Origin: a virus
Direction: 5' to 3' (one strand)
IMG/VR virus record: IMGVR_UViG_3300027749_000060
Location: 1 to 64,000 of that record
Length of the DNA: 64,000 nucleotides
Part shown: piece after piece, positions 30,403 to 44,722 of the stretch
How positions within the stretch are numbered: position 1 is the stretch's first letter
Layout: every line of letters starts with the position of its first letter
Notes under the pieces: model-generated
Database searches by the model: none
Told to the model about the DNA's origin: nothing
What the model saw: the letters and a program-made list of their open reading frames with translations, nothing else
Made by a program: the position numbers and the translations under genes

Positions 30403-31413
30403 TTAAGCGTTTGATATTTTGATGTTAACATCGGCTGCAAAGTACGGTTGATTGTCATATACTTTAGTACCGCTAGTACCATTTGCAGTCCATGCTACTG
30501 AACTATCACTTGCAAATTGATGACTAGCACCAGTACCACGAGTTACTCGTGCTCGATGATTTGATAACTTTGTAATGTAATATTGATTGCCAGCAGTGTC
30601 GGTTGCTGTGATAGAAGCTTCGCCGGCTGCATTTACAGCTGAATCTTTCAACTTGACAATACCAGTTCTTGTACCATCTGTTACTTTATAACGACGACCA
30701 GAAACTTGTCTAATTACATCAACTGCGGTTGCCGAACCACCAGTTAAGTATGCTGTCATAGTAATTGCATTCTCGTTTTGACCAACTACAGCCGATGATC
30801 CCATTACTGCATCACCAGTAACCGATTGGCTAAATGATACAGCCGCATCGGTTGGATCGGTATATCCAGAACCGTTGTTAATCATCAACACTGATTTGGC
30901 ACGATAACGCAATGTTAATGTTGCGCCAGTGGCTGTACTTGCTGAGCCGTCGGCGTGTGTTACTGTAGTTGCTTGTGCCCCAGTTGCTAAAGCACCCGAT
31001 GCATACAAGAATGTGCCACGGCTCAATGGTGTTACAGCAGTAACATCGTCGCCGCCGGTTCCACCAATTGTATCAACTGTAAAAGTTGCTGTGCCGGCGG
31101 AAGTAGTAACTGTTAGAATATCACCGGCTACGTATCCAGCCATTGTACCGCCAATGTCAGTTGCACTTTCAACTTCAGATGTAACGCTACCAGTTGCACG
31201 TACAGCACCTAGTGCTAACTTGTCCGGATCACTGAATGTAGTTGATGGTCGTACCGTATACGCACCCAGGGCAGTTAATGTTACACTAGCAATCCGATTA
31301 CCACCAAGACCGTCATCGCCTTGATTTGCAGAATTATGTGCGTTTGTACTTTCGGCACCATTAGCGCCGATGTTACGATTACCAAAATATTTTTTATTTA
31401 AAGGACGTCCCAT
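30403..31413 (-). CDS. Abundant-type virion protein, 336 aa
   Basis: Begins MGRPLNKKYFGNRNIG, a start common to virion proteins of marine T4-like phages. The body is Ala/Gly/Thr-rich with repeated beta elements (GYVAGDILTVTTSAGTATFTV, MINNGSGYTDPTDAAVSFS, GRRYKVTDGTRTGIVKL) and no Cys, as expected of an all-beta surface protein. AAGGAG lies eight bases from the ATG. It is a single-gene unit: a late promoter at 31502-31509, a leader with three hairpins (31435-31491) and a strong terminator at 30361-30388. That arrangement suggests high expression. Capsid decoration or a tail-surface protein are both possible. Confidence 0.75.
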   Translation of the reverse strand: MGRPLNKKYFGNRNIGANGAESTNAHNSANQGDDGLGGNRIASVTLTALGAYTVRPSTTFSDPDKLALGAVRATGSVTSEVESATDIGGTMAGYVAGDILTVTTSAGTATFTVDTIGGTGGDDVTAVTPLSRGTFLYASGALATGAQATTVTHADGSASTATGATLTLRYRAKSVLMINNGSGYTDPTDAAVSFSQSVTGDAVMGSSAVVGQNENAITMTAYLTGGSATAVDVIRQVSGRRYKVTDGTRTGIVKLKDSAVNAAGEASITATDTAGNQYYITKLSNHRARVTRGTGASHQFASDSSVAWTANGTSGTKVYDNQPYFAADVNIKISNA

Positions 31414-31434
31414 TTTATTTTCTCCTTAAGAATT

Positions 31435-31491
31435 TATGGCGTTCTATGCCATACGCGGTTGGATTTCCGCATAAAACTTGCCCTATGCAAG
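31435..31491 (-). other. Leader with three consecutive hairpins
   Basis: Three small perfect stems in the 5' leader of the 336-residue gene: TATGGC/GCCATA (31435-31453), GCGG/CCGC (31455-31470) and CTTGC/GCAAG (31477-31491). They lie between the late promoter at 31502-31509 and the AAGGAG ribosome site. They may stabilise the mRNA or tune translation; this is inference. Confidence 0.55.
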
Positions 31492-31501
31492 TCGTACTGT
31501 C

Positions 31502-38805: not shown

Positions 38806-41800
38806 TTAATATGCTGCATTTAATAACTGTCGGGTATTATTGTTGCCTTCGGTTAGTAAATTTATTAAATTATCAGTTTTTGTTATACTAGTTTCCATTG
38901 CTAGTAATTGTTTACTTACTAATTCAAGTAACTGTTGCTGATCAGACCCTATAGGAGCAGATATTGGTTCGTTGGTTAGAGATTTTGGTTGAACTTGAGT
39001 TGCTTTTTCTGCTTGAACATTTTTATCCCTGAGTTCCCCAATCATTCTAGACAAAGCACCATCTAACTGTTGATTGCTATCAACTATTAACGATTTTGAT
39101 ATACTATCAAAACTTTTATTAATTTGATTTGGAGAATCTTGATTTGTTAATAATAACTGTGATGTGTTTTTATCTGTTGATACACCTAACGCTAACATTT
39201 GATCAAATGTTTTTTGTATAGACGTTGAACCCAAGTCAAATTGATTAGTTGACATTGCCGAATTGAACATCTTATCAGTTAGTGTTTGAAATTGTGTAGT
39301 TTGATCGGTTGATTGTTTGCTTGCAGTACCACTGAAGTTAAGTAACTGCCCCATTGTAGTTTCCATTTGTGACATCAATGAGTTAGATTGCGCAGTATCT
39401 GCTTTTGTATTATTACCAAAAGAATCAATTGACGATTTTAATTGTGCAGTTTGATCTGCAAACTGTGCGGTGGGTAATTTAATAGCACCAGACATCTGAT
39501 CAATCGACGATTTTAATTGTGCAGCTTGATCTGCAAACTGTGCGGTGGGTAATTTAATAGCACCAGACATCTGATCAATCGACGATTTTAATTGTGCAGC
39601 TTGATCTGTAAATTGTGTATTAGGTGCTTTAACAGAACCAATCAATTGATCAATTGAAGTTTTTATTTGCCCAACTTGAGTCGCAACTTGTGCAGTGGGT
39701 AAATTTGCAGAACCAATCAATTGATCAATTGAAGTTTTTATTTGGCTAGCTTGATCTGCAAATTGTTTATCTTGCCCGTTGGGTAATTTAACGGCAGTAG
39801 CCAATTGGTCAATTGACGTTTTTATTTGTCCTGCTTGATCTGCAAATTGTGCGTTAGGTGTACTAATAGATCCAATTAATTGAGTGATTAAACTTTTTAT
39901 GTCACTGGTTTGATTTGCAAACTGTGCATTGGGTAAATTAACAGCACTAGTCAATTGATCCATTGAAGTTTTTATTAAACCAGCTTGATCTGCTACTTGA
40001 GTATTCTGTACGTTAGGCAGTTTAACAGCAGTAATTAATTGATCAATTGATGTTTTTATTTGACTTGACTGATCTGCAAACTGTGCATTGGGTAACTTAA
40101 CAGCATCTAATAATTGGTTAACTATGCCTTGTAATTGAGTATTTTGCCCCAACGACTGTTGATCCATGGATTTACCAATGGTAGTTAATTGATCAATTGC
40201 CAATTTTGTAACTTCTGCGTTATTTGATCTAGACATTTCTGCCGAATTCATTTGATCAAATATAGTTTTAAGTTGTGGTGCAAAATCAGTAAAGCCCGGA
40301 GGCATCATTGATTCAACTTTAATGTTAATATCTTTGTTCAGTATGTCAGATAACTTATTTGCTCCGCTTGATAACAAGGTCTGCAGAGAAGTACCAGCAG
40401 CAGACAAGCTAGAAAAAAACTCTTTAAATGGAGTTTGAGCTTGCTCGTTTGCTGTTGATATAATACTACTAGGAGTAGCAAGCCCTTTATTGTATTCATC
40501 GGTTTCAGCTCGATTTAATACACGCTCACCTTCATGTATTAATAAAATTTTGGTACTGGGTTCAGCAGCGGCACCGTAACGTTTGCCTGTTCCATCCAGT
40601 CTGGTATTTTTAGGTTTACTAAAAAATCCCTCAATTGCGCCGCCAATACCGCCAATTATGCCGCCAATTACGGTTCCAGTAGCTGCTCCGCTATAAAGAC
40701 CTGCGCCTGCGCCTATTACTGTACCAAAGCCAGGACCAACAGCACTTCCGGCTATACCGCCGGCGACCATGCCAACGCCAGCACCTGTTTCAGCACCAAA
40801 TGCGGCGCCATCGGCGGCGCCGCTAAGAGCGCCCGCTTTTACTCTATCAAACGTACTTCCCCCACCTGCAGCGGATGCTGCACCGGTGCTACTGCCTCTA
40901 TCGTGTATCTCTTTGGCAATTTCAGCAAATGTCTCTTTTATGCTTTCAAGCATTGCTGCGGTTACCGACGCATACCCTTTAATCAATGGATCCATGGCCG
41001 ATTGTAAATCTAGTGCCATTTTTTGCGATGCTTGCAGTGCTTTCATCAGATCATTAGTTAACTCGTCTTTGGTAGTTTCTTGCCCTTTGGTGCCTTGTTC
41101 GGCCAATTTTTGTGCATCGGCAGTCCATAAATTTCTGAATTTCAACTCATCGCCCATTACTTTAGATAAATCAGTAACAAACCCACCAATACCTGCCATA
41201 CCTGCCATACCAATATCCGACTGCTTGAGCATGTCATCTTTAATTTGGCCAGTATACTGCCCATTTATACGTCGTTGTTCAGCATCATCAAGTTTACCAG
41301 CTTGGAATGCTTTATAGCTGGAGGTAACACTGTCGGTTAATCCTTGACTCATTGCTGCCGCTGCTGCGCCTTCTTTGTTAATAACACTGCCAAACATGAC
41401 CATGTCCATGAAGTTTTTGCGCTCCAATTCACTCATGTTACCCATCGCACCAATAACACCCTTGCGCTGATTTTCATCCATGCCGGCTAGTTTTTGTTGG
41501 AAACCAAGTTGACTGGCTTGATCTCTAACTCTTGCCATTCTTTGTTTTGCATCTTCGCCAGTAATAGCAGATATTATTCTTAAATTTTCAGCATATTTTT
41601 GTGTTTCTGCTGCAATTTGCGTGTCTGTGGCCTTTAAGGGTCCACCAGACTGACGCATATCTTTCATGGTTTCTGCCACTAAACCAGCTTGATCTTCTAA
41701 ACTGTATCCCAAATTTAATAGGCTGCGTTGCATTGTGTCGCCACCAGCTTTTAGTGCTGCACCTACTTTTTTAATGCCGCCAGATACACCCAATCCGGAA

Positions 41801-42618
41801 CCTGCTAGGGTACTTGAATTTTCTTGTACTACTTTAGCAAATTGATTTACTGTTAACCCAGCTGCTAAGGATGCATCACGCATGCCTTGTACACCGTCGG
41901 CAAATAGAGCACCACTGGCACTCATTGTCATAAACGATTCTACTGATTTTTTTAGTTCTGCACTCAGAACTTCTATACCAAATTTAGCTAGTTTGCTTGC
42001 CGATTCGCTGAAAAAACTAAGTGCAGTCCCTGCTGCCATTAGCCCTAATCCAAATAGTTTTGCTTTTCCTGTGCCATGCATCAGGGCTTCGCCCAGGCCT
42101 TGTGCACCTCCAGCCGCAGCTTGTAGTCCACTGTTAGCAACATCAACGCCAGCGGTCATTATTCCAGCAGCTACATCTATACTAGACGCACCGCTTTGTA
42201 GATTTTTTACAAAAGTCCCAGCGCCACCTGCGGCAATTTGTCCTATCGCTGCACTGGCTTTTTGCAATCCTATAGTAAAGTTAATGGTTGCCGCTTTAGC
42301 ATTAGCTTCAAAATTTTCTTTAGCTATCTGGGATTTCTCCCACATGAGAGTATCTTTTTCAGTTTTTTTAGTAGTTTTAGATATCTGTTCGTCTAGTTTT
42401 TTTAACTCATCTGATATATCCCGATATGGTAATTTTTGATTTTTAATTACACTACTAAAAAATCCAGTGTCCTTTGAAGCTTGCCTGATAGTCTTTGACA
42501 GACGTAACAGCGCATCATTGGCTTCTTGTGCCCGTGCTGCATCTTCCGCACTGGTGCGAGTCTGTATGCCTGCTTGTAACGCTTGAACAATTGCTTCTGC
42601 TAATCTAGTTTCATCCAT
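38806..42618 (-). CDS. Tape measure protein, 1270 aa
   Basis: Features of tail tape measure proteins are present: large size, helical N-terminus (residues 1-110), Ala/Gly-rich hydrophobic segments (~110-210 and ~580-650, e.g. GAGVGMVAGGIAGSAVGPGFG), LAAGLTVNQFAKVVQENSSTL near 250, and LLIHEGERVLNRAETDEY near 690. Residues ~837-1063 are about nine copies of a ~25-residue unit (QLKSSIDQMSGAIKLPTAQFADQAA). T4 uses gp29 (590 residues) as its ruler; no gp29 similarity can be claimed by eye. At 0.15 nm per helical residue this one would set a tail near 190 nm (inference). It is divergent from gp26/gp51 and has its own late promoter at 42655-42662. The ATG at 42618 is followed by Asp-Glu-Thr-Arg; the ribosome site is weak. 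Confidence 0.82.
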   Translation of the reverse strand: MDETRLAEAIVQALQAGIQTRTSAEDAARAQEANDALLRLSKTIRQASKDTGFFSSVIKNQKLPYRDISDELKKLDEQISKTTKKTEKDTLMWEKSQIAKENFEANAKAATINFTIGLQKASAAIGQIAAGGAGTFVKNLQSGASSIDVAAGIMTAGVDVANSGLQAAAGGAQGLGEALMHGTGKAKLFGLGLMAAGTALSFFSESASKLAKFGIEVLSAELKKSVESFMTMSASGALFADGVQGMRDASLAAGLTVNQFAKVVQENSSTLAGSGLGVSGGIKKVGAALKAGGDTMQRSLLNLGYSLEDQAGLVAETMKDMRQSGGPLKATDTQIAAETQKYAENLRIISAITGEDAKQRMARVRDQASQLGFQQKLAGMDENQRKGVIGAMGNMSELERKNFMDMVMFGSVINKEGAAAAAMSQGLTDSVTSSYKAFQAGKLDDAEQRRINGQYTGQIKDDMLKQSDIGMAGMAGIGGFVTDLSKVMGDELKFRNLWTADAQKLAEQGTKGQETTKDELTNDLMKALQASQKMALDLQSAMDPLIKGYASVTAAMLESIKETFAEIAKEIHDRGSSTGAASAAGGGSTFDRVKAGALSGAADGAAFGAETGAGVGMVAGGIAGSAVGPGFGTVIGAGAGLYSGAATGTVIGGIIGGIGGAIEGFFSKPKNTRLDGTGKRYGAAAEPSTKILLIHEGERVLNRAETDEYNKGLATPSSIISTANEQAQTPFKEFFSSLSAAGTSLQTLLSSGANKLSDILNKDINIKVESMMPPGFTDFAPQLKTIFDQMNSAEMSRSNNAEVTKLAIDQLTTIGKSMDQQSLGQNTQLQGIVNQLLDAVKLPNAQFADQSSQIKTSIDQLITAVKLPNVQNTQVADQAGLIKTSMDQLTSAVNLPNAQFANQTSDIKSLITQLIGSISTPNAQFADQAGQIKTSIDQLATAVKLPNGQDKQFADQASQIKTSIDQLIGSANLPTAQVATQVGQIKTSIDQLIGSVKAPNTQFTDQAAQLKSSIDQMSGAIKLPTAQFADQAAQLKSSIDQMSGAIKLPTAQFADQTAQLKSSIDSFGNNTKADTAQSNSLMSQMETTMGQLLNFSGTASKQSTDQTTQFQTLTDKMFNSAMSTNQFDLGSTSIQKTFDQMLALGVSTDKNTSQLLLTNQDSPNQINKSFDSISKSLIVDSNQQLDGALSRMIGELRDKNVQAEKATQVQPKSLTNEPISAPIGSDQQQLLELVSKQLLAMETSITKTDNLINLLTEGNNNTRQLLNAAY
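39430..40112 (-). repeat. 75-bp tandem repeats in the tape measure gene
   Basis: Around nine in-frame units of 75 bp (25 residues), some extended by three residues. The two copies at about 39440-39590 are almost identical in DNA, while outer copies have diverged. Confidence 0.88.
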
Positions 42619-42674: not shown

Positions 42675-43523
42675 ATGGAAAATCAACGCAAAAACCCACT
42701 AGCTGGGCACTTTAGACAACCGGCTATTTACTTAACATTACCCAGCAAAGGTCGATGGTGGGGTGAAAATGCTCTAAATATGCCAGCAAACCAAGAAATA
42801 CCCATTTATCCAATGAGCACCAAAGATGAAATTATACTCAGAACACCAGACGCATTGCTAAATGGCCAGGGTATTATAGAAGTTATTCACAGTTGTTGCC
42901 CAAATATATTAGATGCATGGCAAATGCCTAGCATTGACGTAGATGCTGTGTTAATAGCAATACGCATTGCCACCTACGGCAATGACATGAATTTTGATAG
43001 TAAATGCACACATTGTGGTGAAGATAATACACACGGGGTAGATTTAAGTGAGCCATTGGCTAGTTTAAGATGTCCTAACTATGCCGAACCATTAGAACAT
43101 AAAGGCTTAAAAATAAAGTTTAAACCACAACATTATTTTACTGCTAATAAATCAAATGTTTTAGAGTTCCAAGAACAAAAGATATTAAATTTACTAGCAG
43201 CAGCAGACATGGATCCAGAAGATAAAGCAGTGCAAATAAAACAGGCAATGGATAAACTTTTTGATCAAGGCCTCAGGGCCTGTACGGACTGCACAGATCA
43301 TATAGAAATGGAAGACGGCCAGCAAGTACATAATACTGACTATATCTTTGAATTCTACACAAACGCTGAAAGCGGACTAATCCGCGAAATACAAGCTAAA
43401 GTACAAGAGTTTAGCAATCAAGCTAAACCTGATGGAATAGCACTAGCATGTCAGGAATGCCATAAACCATACGAGGTAGAACTAGCGTTCGATTACGCAA
43501 ATTTTTTCGGAAGAGGCTTTTAA
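42675..43523 (+). CDS. 26: Baseplate hub/tail assembly protein gp26
   Basis: 282 residues. Conserved gp26 (T4 baseplate family) segments: YLTLPSKGRWW, IPIYPMSTKDEIILRTPDALLNGQGIIEVIHSCCPNILDAWQMPSIDVDAVLIAIRIATYGNDM is recognisable in pieces across residues 18-105. Two CxxC-type pairs (CTHCGED at ~114 and CQECH at ~262) suggest a metal-binding finger, with CTDC at ~205. AGGAT is the ribosome site. The last codons, AAT TTT TTC GGA AGA GGC TTT TAA, contain a T TTT TTC slippery site (43502-43508); a -1 slip there enters the gp51-like frame and would give a 355-residue product. Role: in T4 gp26 is needed for hub assembly. It is divergent from the tape measure gene. Confidence 0.93.
   Translation: MENQRKNPLAGHFRQPAIYLTLPSKGRWWGENALNMPANQEIPIYPMSTKDEIILRTPDALLNGQGIIEVIHSCCPNILDAWQMPSIDVDAVLIAIRIATYGNDMNFDSKCTHCGEDNTHGVDLSEPLASLRCPNYAEPLEHKGLKIKFKPQHYFTANKSNVLEFQEQKILNLLAAADMDPEDKAVQIKQAMDKLFDQGLRACTDCTDHIEMEDGQQVHNTDYIFEFYTNAESGLIREIQAKVQEFSNQAKPDGIALACQECHKPYEVELAFDYANFFGRGF
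43502..43508 (+). promoter_or_regulatory. Slippery heptamer T TTT TTC, predicted -1 frameshift site
   Basis: In the gp26 frame the codons are aaT TTT TTC, matching X XXY YYZ. Slipping back one base continues as CGG AAG AGG CTT into the gp51-like frame, 15 bases before the gp26 stop. Confidence 0.72.
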
Positions 43524-43741
43524 CTTTAAACACTGACGCAGAGGTCATCAAGTTCTTAGAGAGATATGACCGAGAAGTAAAAGCCTTAAAAGAAGAAACA
43601 TTGCGTATGTGCTGGTATATGAGAGGAGGAGTATCTTATAATGAACTCATGGAAATGAGCAACATTGAAAGAACTATCATTGGGGATATTATTAAAAGCA
43701 ATTTAGAAACTACTAAAGAATCCAAATTGCCTTTCTTCTAA
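43508..43741 (+). CDS. 51: gp51-like frame, read by -1 frameshift from gp26
   Basis: 77 codons and a stop, in the -1 frame relative to gp26. The conserved sequence runs DAEVIKFLERYDREVKALKE, then RMCWYMRGGVSYNELMEMS, and ends LETTKESKLPFF, recalling the gp51 hub-assembly protein of marine T4-like phages. No ATG, GTG or TTG exists in this frame before about codon 33 (TTG at ~43604), and using that would lose half of the conserved domain. The frame overlaps gp26 by 16 bases at a T TTT TTC site. I therefore read it as the C-terminal part of a gp26-gp51 fusion made by programmed frameshifting. The alternatives are a sequencing error or a non-standard start. The arrangement copies the G/GT chaperone pair used for tape measure proteins in lambda-type phages. 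Confidence 0.75.
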   Translation, partial: RKRLLTLNTDAEVIKFLERYDREVKALKEETLRMCWYMRGGVSYNELMEMSNIERTIIGDIIKSNLETTKESKLPFF

Positions 43742-44200
43742 TATTCTTTATCTATTCGAGACTTGCTGTGCAAGTCTATTGCTATCGCTATCGCTCAGCA
43801 ATATTATTTCTTCTAATCTAAGAAACAATTCTAAATACTTTTAATTCGGATATATTATCTAGATGTAGATCACAATTCGGCCCAGCAGGCCAAAATTGTG
43901 ATCGAGACATTATCTGAGTGCCTTCAACACACTAACTATAAGAGATTGCTTGCTGGTGCAAACACGGAGGCGGTCATCCTGTACCCCCTACTCTAGATTC
44001 GATTATGACGGTACACTATACAATAACTAGTTAGCGCCATTGTTAGTGCTTGGGTTGTATATTTTTTACAGAGCCCAGATCATTTAATACCTTACGTTGG
44101 TATCTTACCGTACAGCTCCTAAGTCTGCGGGTGTTATTTCACACACACTCAATAGGGATCGAGGTACCTCGATCAAACGACGCTGCTATAATAATTTGCC
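43742..44200. other. Noncoding stretch with several strong hairpins
   Basis: No convincing reading frame lies here. Structures seen: AGACTTGC/GCAAGTCT with a three-base loop (43759-43777), TATTGCT/AGCAATA (43777-43803), a long stem GATCACAATT + GGCC / GGCC + AATTGTGATC (43868-43903), ATACC/GGTAT near 44087-44103, and an 18-bp perfect palindrome GATCGAGGTACCTCGATC (44157-44174). The first stem could end gp26/gp51 transcription but lacks a T-run. GC content is locally higher than in neighbouring intergenic DNA. It may hold a small RNA, a processed leader or a replication signal; no tRNA fold could be built. It lies between convergent genes (gp51-like and the nuclease). Confidence 0.5.
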
Positions 44201-44722
44201 TTAGCGGCTGGATTTACATAGTTGTTCTATTGATTCGGAATTTTTATTCCAGAATGATTCAAAGTCTTGGATGATCCATGTGCCATAATTAGGAGAGATA
44301 TACGTGGAGTAATTGGGATTTAGTGATAGACTTGGTGTCGGTTGACAGGCAATATAAGTGCCTTTGCGATTAAATTTCATGAGTAATATATTGAAATCGC
44401 CAGTGTTGGCCACTTCTAATAACTGCCCAATCCATTTTTCTAATATAGGTATTGTACCTTGATAAAGTTGATGGAATGGAAAATCAGCATAACTCTTTGC
44501 TTCCGCATTAAAATATGTCCAAGATTCCGGGGGAACAATATCTCCTTTGAAACTCTTAACTTGACTTGCATCAAGACTTGCTTTTCTAAAAGAATTTGTT
44601 CCGCCAATGTACGCTCCGCTGTGTGGTGCTCTAATAAAAGAGGCATTGTGGCGCTCAGATAGAAATTTGGCAACTACACGTTCCCAGGAATTTCCTTTAT
44701 TTTTGCTTTTTGATCCACTCAT
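44201..44722 (-). CDS. PD-(D/E)XK-type nuclease, Holliday-junction-resolvase-like
   Basis: 173 residues. KGNSWERVVAKFLSE, then RAPHSGAYIG, FKGDIVPP and FNAEAKSYADFPFHQ give the pattern E14 ... D61 ... E74-x-K76 of PD-(D/E)XK nucleases; the front motif resembles Hjc/RecU-type resolvases and related phage endonucleases. It would cut branched or double-stranded DNA and is placed beside the gp46/gp47 recombination nuclease, which fits a role in recombination-driven replication or repair. AAGGT is the ribosome site. It lies downstream of gp46 beyond a terminator-like hairpin (44782-44866), so it may have separate or read-through transcription. The substrate is inferred, not shown. Confidence 0.72.
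   Translation of the reverse strand: MSGSKSKNKGNSWERVVAKFLSERHNASFIRAPHSGAYIGGTNSFRKASLDASQVKSFKGDIVPPESWTYFNAEAKSYADFPFHQLYQGTIPILEKWIGQLLEVANTGDFNILLMKFNRKGTYIACQPTPSLSLNPNYSTYISPNYGTWIIQDFESFWNKNSESIEQLCKSSR

Follow-up and report, generated by a model that had tools for sequence, protein, structure and literature searches.

A probable -1 programmed ribosomal frameshift at the end of gp26 predicts short and long tail assembly chaperones in an uncultivated phage related to jumbo phages

The gp26 gene of the large, uncultivated T4-like phage represented by IMG/VR record IMGVR_UViG_3300027749_000060 is very probably (around 0.9, as judged from sequence comparison) decoded with a -1 programmed ribosomal frameshift, which would generate a tail assembly chaperone in two forms, one short (TAC-N) and one long (TAC-NC). 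The window, which is the stretch of 64,000 nucleotides spanning positions 1 to 64,000 of this record, was analysed together with relatives from IMG/VR and from phage isolates. The frameshift had been proposed in a sequence-only reading of the window and now has strong support from the invariance of the slip site in divergent phages, a constant frame geometry and a covarying stem. Tail assembly chaperones act with the tape measure protein, which sets tail length in long-tailed phages. The features of the locus are listed in Table 1.

Table 1. Features of the gp26 locus, with positions in the window
Feature	Position	Strand	Basis or remark
Candidate tape measure protein, 1270 aa, divergent gene	38806..42618	-	Context; conserved neighbour in most relatives
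gp26 / TAC-N, zero frame, 282 aa	42675..43523	+	ORF, PF12322, PHROG 150, AlphaFold2 model
Slippery heptamer T TTT TTC	43502..43508	+	Sequence; invariant among relatives
TAC-C, -1 frame extension, 77 codons	43508..43741	+	Open frame, kept in relatives
Stem 5' arm	43513..43527	+	Fold prediction, covariation; 4-6 nt spacer after heptamer
gp26 stop TAA, inside 5' arm of downstream stem	43521..43523	+	Sequence and predicted fold
Inner hairpin in stem loop, 43543-43548 paired with 43566-43571	43543..43571	+	Predicted fold only
Stem 3' arm	43574..43587	+	Fold prediction, covariation

The final codons of gp26 read AAT TTT TTC GGA AGA GGC TTT TAA and thus contain, shortly upstream of the 0-frame stop, a heptamer of the X XXY YYZ type after which the -1 frame is open. 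The sequence bears out the overlap of gp26 with the -1 frame at T TTT TTC that had been proposed. Between two stops, the -1 frame stays open across positions 43466-43741; read from the last base of the heptamer it begins RKRLLTLNTDAEV... and comprises 77 sense codons, with the closing stop ending at its downstream limit. The predicted fusion product of 355 residues is likewise correct, TAC-NC consisting of gp26 residues 1-278 followed by the 77-residue extension. No start is present ahead of the overlap. The accompanying statement that the small frame has no ATG, GTG or TTG before its codon 33 is off by one codon, as a TTG already occurs at the 32nd codon, followed by an ATG at the 34th. TTTTTTC was found 11 times on this strand, against ~15 occurrences expected from base composition; the motif alone is not rare, and it is its conservation at synonymous positions that exceeds chance.

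A search with the 77-residue domain that was blind to the slip site recovered 33 IMG/VR loci encoding relatives that are 43-96% identical. T TTT TTC was present at the equivalent position in 32 of the 33, the remaining locus starting after the junction, and these loci display a long 0-phase frame upstream with the gp26 stop 4-13 nt after the heptamer. Isolates were retrieved by tblastn of gp26 against phage isolates, the matching jumbo phages infecting Agrobacterium, Sinorhizobium, Erwinia, Serratia, Pseudomonas, Klebsiella, Vibrio, Escherichia and Xanthomonas; the heptamer and an open -1 frame were observed in 9/9 jumbo isolates examined. Counted over distinct window-type and jumbo loci, including RaK2, PA5oct, Atu_ph07 and Phosso, T TTT TTC occupies the equivalent position in 37/37. 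The same heptamer followed by an open -1 frame was also identified in cyanophage S-RIM8, Vibrio phiST2, Delftia PhiW-14 and Aeromonas ZPAH1; in Melnitz-1 the site reads T TTT TTT. Comparison of the junction in other phages, which the sequence-only reading had put forward as a check, reveals that slip site and frame geometry are conserved, including in 59/59 distinct cyanophage loci. T TTT TTC was also found in 57 further loci recovered via an unrelated RNA motif, a few of which are contigs counted earlier; here a junction had to carry TTT for the first Phe to be counted, with the preceding and last bases of the heptamer left free. No T TTT TTC was found in the Ackermannviridae examined (Vibrio phage VAP7, L052, and Kuttervirus 241, L055). 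In both of these phages a small frame follows gp26 in the -1 phase, and the VAP7 junction is a TAATG stop-start.

Among divergent relatives the heptamer is kept even where a synonymous change was available. When 26 gp26 genes were aligned by codon (272 columns), Met and Trp aside, an invariant third base was observed only at the three slip-site codons, and these remained the only columns of this kind when the nine jumbo isolates were added. The codon ahead of Phe-Phe, which may specify N, S, D, H, T, A, R or Y, invariably ends in T. Phe is encoded in these genes by 281 TTT and 81 TTC codons. Because the slip positions precede the new frame, the downstream protein cannot account for their invariance. 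Since the sequences are related, conservation is stated here without a P-value.

The stem in the window, to which the sequence-only reading made no reference, comprises 14 pairs with one bulge (-21.1 kcal/mol, z -3.1), commencing 4 nt past the heptamer and reaching its G-C core at 6 nt. Relative to redraws with synonymous codons its stability has a z of -3.3, the mean over 37 loci being -2.4. Across the 17 loci that share its register, 85% of the cells of the helix are paired, compared with at most 72% when the helix is slid, and 15 cells are doubly changed versus 3.8 ± 1.4 in shuffles, with 0/500 shuffles reaching 15. In other lineages the partner of this 5' arm is another segment further downstream. 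Among the 57 additional loci, pairing of most of the 5' arm with downstream sequence was seen in 50, and the partner lies at offsets of +50-59 (24 loci), +70-79 (15), +80-89 (6) or elsewhere (the rest). By the synonymous-redraw test no stem excess was seen in RaK2-type phages, and the cyanophage stem is unsupported, with a mean z of 0.03. A structure placed as a frameshift stimulator would be, 5-9 nt downstream of the heptamer, was found in the window's clade and not in RaK2-type phages or cyanophages, and a search for an Rfam family describing the frameshift element found none.

The stem, on the sequences compared, is a feature of the clade, whereas the heptamer is the general feature; as no support for the stem was obtained in RaK2-type phages or cyanophages, it is no general requirement. 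By a narrow balance of likelihood, the recoding signal of the clade has two parts, namely the invariant T TTT TTC and a long stem with its 5' arm anchored ~6 nt downstream and its 3' arm at distances that vary by lineage, from about +30 to +90 nt. If this is true, a stimulatory stem has been re-made repeatedly with new partners within one coding sequence, RaK2-type phages and cyanophages get by without it, and T4 escaped through gene duplication and loss of the slip site. Such a relocating stem would suit the study of how frameshift stimulators evolve.

The product of gp26 matches PF12322 (E-value 8.5e-14; 51-52 bits, cut-off 24.5) and PHROG 150 (2.5e-15). Its AlphaFold2 model (pLDDT 84) matched T4-like baseplate hub assembly proteins in BFVD, with a best E of 2e-24, while a PDB fold search with the model gave nothing significant and a PDB sequence search gave no match. 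PF12322 is matched over its full length by both T4 gp26 and T4 gp51, the latter displaying ~48 extra C-terminal residues beyond the family. T4 contains two PF12322 genes and ten other phages contain one each; a single one was identified in the 109,418-base record of the window, which is possibly incomplete, and the T4 arrangement with separate genes 26 and 51 was not observed in this phage. Because gp26 and gp51 share PF12322 and gp51 has an additional C-terminus, gp26 corresponds to TAC-N, and gp26 with its extension to TAC-NC, the equivalent of gp51. This link to T4 gp26 and gp51 rests on PF12322 and the fold search, as our own gp26 profile matched neither T4 protein with HMMER and hhalign against the single T4 sequences gave no match.

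The extension itself, with relatives of 43-96% identity and a three-helix model (pLDDT 89), produced no convincing Pfam or PHROG match. Comparison with the gp51 tail yielded 7% with hhalign against A4, 0.001 for phiST2 and 0.026 for T4 gp51 with HMMER in a small database, and a weak match to a gp51 in the fold search. PHROG 634 unites residues 147-246 of T4 gp51 with small cyanophage and Vibrio frames, in agreement with the report that cyanophage gp51 is ~20% of the usual length (Sullivan et al. 2010; PMC3037559). Homology of TAC-C with the T4 gp51 tail is plausible but, by sequence, weak, and the 77-residue extension would be, at most, the C-terminal tail of gp51 and not the whole protein. 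The earlier label "gp51-like" was imprecise: PF12322 is indeed common to gp26 and both T4 proteins, but the frameshifted domain has no convincing match and the main domain of gp51 belongs to the gp26 family, so the name gp51 was rejected for it.

The large divergent gene next to gp26 is considered, by context, a candidate tape measure gene. In most window-type and RaK2-type loci a large divergent gene (~700-1270 aa) begins some tens of nucleotides away from that of gp26, its sequence being akin to the 1270-aa protein in many of them; the counterparts in RaK2 and fEgEco12 are annotated as tape-measure-like, and the gene after the candidate encodes a T4-type portal. The 1270-aa protein gave no profile match. 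It displays Gly/Ala-rich hydrophobic stretches and, in its second half, many near-repeats of xxSIDQLxxAVKLPN, and conservation in relatives is limited to its first half. The comparison with the lambda G/GT pair drawn in the sequence-only reading gains support from the single protein family, from the two copies in T4 versus one in every frameshifting phage tested, and from the adjoining tape measure candidate.

We infer the slippage, the ratio of short to long product and the chaperone function as follows. Ribosomes translating gp26 would slip back one base at T TTT TTC, 12 nt ahead of the stop, in a tandem slippage that retains tRNA pairing in both sites, the codons TTT TTC being replaced by TTT TTT in the new frame. 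Where the stem is present, slippage would be aided by this structure, which starts 4-6 nt downstream and encloses the gp26 stop. The majority of ribosomes would terminate to release the 282-aa TAC-N, while a minority would read on to yield the 355-aa TAC-NC. If the lambda gpG/gpGT pair is a guide, the two proteins may bind the tape measure protein while the tail is being assembled, the additional TAC-C domain may recruit tail tube subunits, and neither protein would remain in the virion. In T4, an equivalent pair would come from two genes that arose by duplication, 26 for the short form and 51 for the long one. The frameshift and the T4 arrangement would then represent two genetic routes to one function, recoding of one gene and duplication into two.

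Other explanations of the junction fare less well. The small frame could be restarted after termination at the gp26 stop and made as a separate protein, as an ATG overlaps that stop in some relatives (TTC GAA TGA in Phosso and in loci L007 and L030) and a separate gene is annotated at this position in several isolates. The frame in the window, like that of most relatives, has no start before codon 32, the conserved part of the -1 frame starts directly at the junction, and reinitiation leaves the invariant slip-site wobble bases unexplained even where an ATG is present, which makes this explanation highly improbable. Equally small is the chance that the frames are joined in the transcript, through stuttering of RNA polymerase on the T run with addition of a base. 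The junction does contain a run of six T, but six bases are short for transcriptional slippage; the length of the run and the C that follows never vary, as expected of a codon-phased heptamer, and in the window's clade the stem lies at ribosomal spacing. That a sequencing or assembly error has split a single true frame is suggested by the homopolymer at the junction and is of negligible probability, as an error is ruled out by the identical frame break in well over 100 independent contigs and isolates from different laboratories.

A different objection accepts the frameshift and assigns the proteins to the baseplate hub as structural parts in place of tape measure chaperones. T4 gp26 is traditionally annotated "baseplate hub subunit", and a T4 review reports contradictory results on its presence in the hub. 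In a table of the same review, however, both gp26 and gp51 appear among the chaperones of hub assembly, and gp51 is described there as required yet absent from the particle. Together with the short/long architecture and the tape measure neighbour, which suit a tail assembly chaperone, this renders a structural role unlikely and favours a chaperone role.

The lambda gpG/gpGT pair resembles the one proposed here: a -1 slip towards the end of the gene for the short form, with the tape measure gene (here a candidate) close by, gives rise to short and long forms. The lambda heptamer is G GGA AAG. The two systems differ in this heptamer, in that no sequence homology has been shown between them, and in the divergent orientation of the tape measure candidate described here. 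In T4, PF12322 is likewise present in all the proteins concerned and gp51, consisting of the domain and a C-terminal extension, resembles TAC-NC; in contrast, there are two separate genes, and gene 26 ends GAG TTC TTT GAG TTA CTA TAA, its Phe-Phe being encoded as TTC TTT without a slip site. T4 gp51 reads in frame through a comparable V-F-K-L-L segment.

A 2022 study reportedly describes frameshifting as conserved in several T4-like groups, with the T4 group using genes 26 and 51. In the accounts of two later papers, which agree with this, TAC genes were identified in T4-like phages by Vladimirov, Gautam & Davidson (2022, Virology 566:9-15; via PMC10885494 and PMC12846349). The PRFect paper (PMC10885494) cites that work for T4-like phages with a short gene and a fused long gene, and the 2025 paper on phage Adele (PMC12846349) for poly-T slip signals in T4-like TAC-N genes. 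As represented there, the T4-like chaperones share with the present ones the protein family, the short and long forms and the poly-T slip signals; the phage described here differs in belonging to an uncultivated, jumbo-related clade and in its covarying stem with a relocating 3' arm. In the Vandenendeviridae and Andersonviridae, exemplified by Adele (PMC12846349), a -1 frameshift is similarly conserved at the end of TAC-N and TAC-C had earlier been annotated as a separate hypothetical gene, although the motif is GTTTTT and not T TTT TTC and other phage families are concerned. To judge by these accounts, the T4-like TAC frameshift has largely been published already, and this locus is a well-supported further example. 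What may be new is the covarying stem, whose 3' arm relocates, so that the window contributes an uncultivated clade and possibly this stem. The frameshift would account for a small "hypothetical protein" that either appears as a gene of its own or is overlooked in the annotation of many jumbo phages and cyanophages, and the small-frame genes of RaK2, PA5oct, Atu_ph07, Phosso and the cyanophages merit re-annotation as TAC-NC. In the public annotations of Atu_ph07 (L042), PA5oct (L045) and RaK2 (L046) the TAC-C frame is truncated or absent.

Directly after the TAC-C frame lies a structured non-coding RNA of ~350 nt (43853-44208), with hairpins at 43759-43802. The 459-nt stretch that follows TAC-C is better conserved than the adjacent coding DNA (96% vs 77% in locus L004). 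In 12 sequences, 94 base pairs are supported, 96% of their cells are paired compared with at most 37% when slid, and 100 cells are doubly changed versus 34 in shuffles, these statistics being obtained with a structure derived from the very alignment scored. The core motif was found in at least 120 viral contigs and in 0/84,980 cellular genomes; one viral match (L139), located inside a coding frame, was rejected as a chance match. An Rfam search gave no match to the structured RNA within the window. In 14/20 relatives RF01718 (Polynucleobacter-1) matches its 3' part on the opposite strand, and the RNA is thus at least partly known. In relatives L149-L228 the RNA shares its strand with the TAC gene and follows it at distances of 71 to 3159 bases; this variability indicates that it is linked to the genome region and not to the frameshift itself. 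A PDDEXK-family phage endonuclease (44201-44722, - strand; PF24608, 8.2e-21) is convergent with the structured RNA. Elsewhere in the window, an RF02980 freshwater-2 RNA was identified at 31411-31492 on the - strand, its score of 74.3 bits exceeding the Rfam cut-off.
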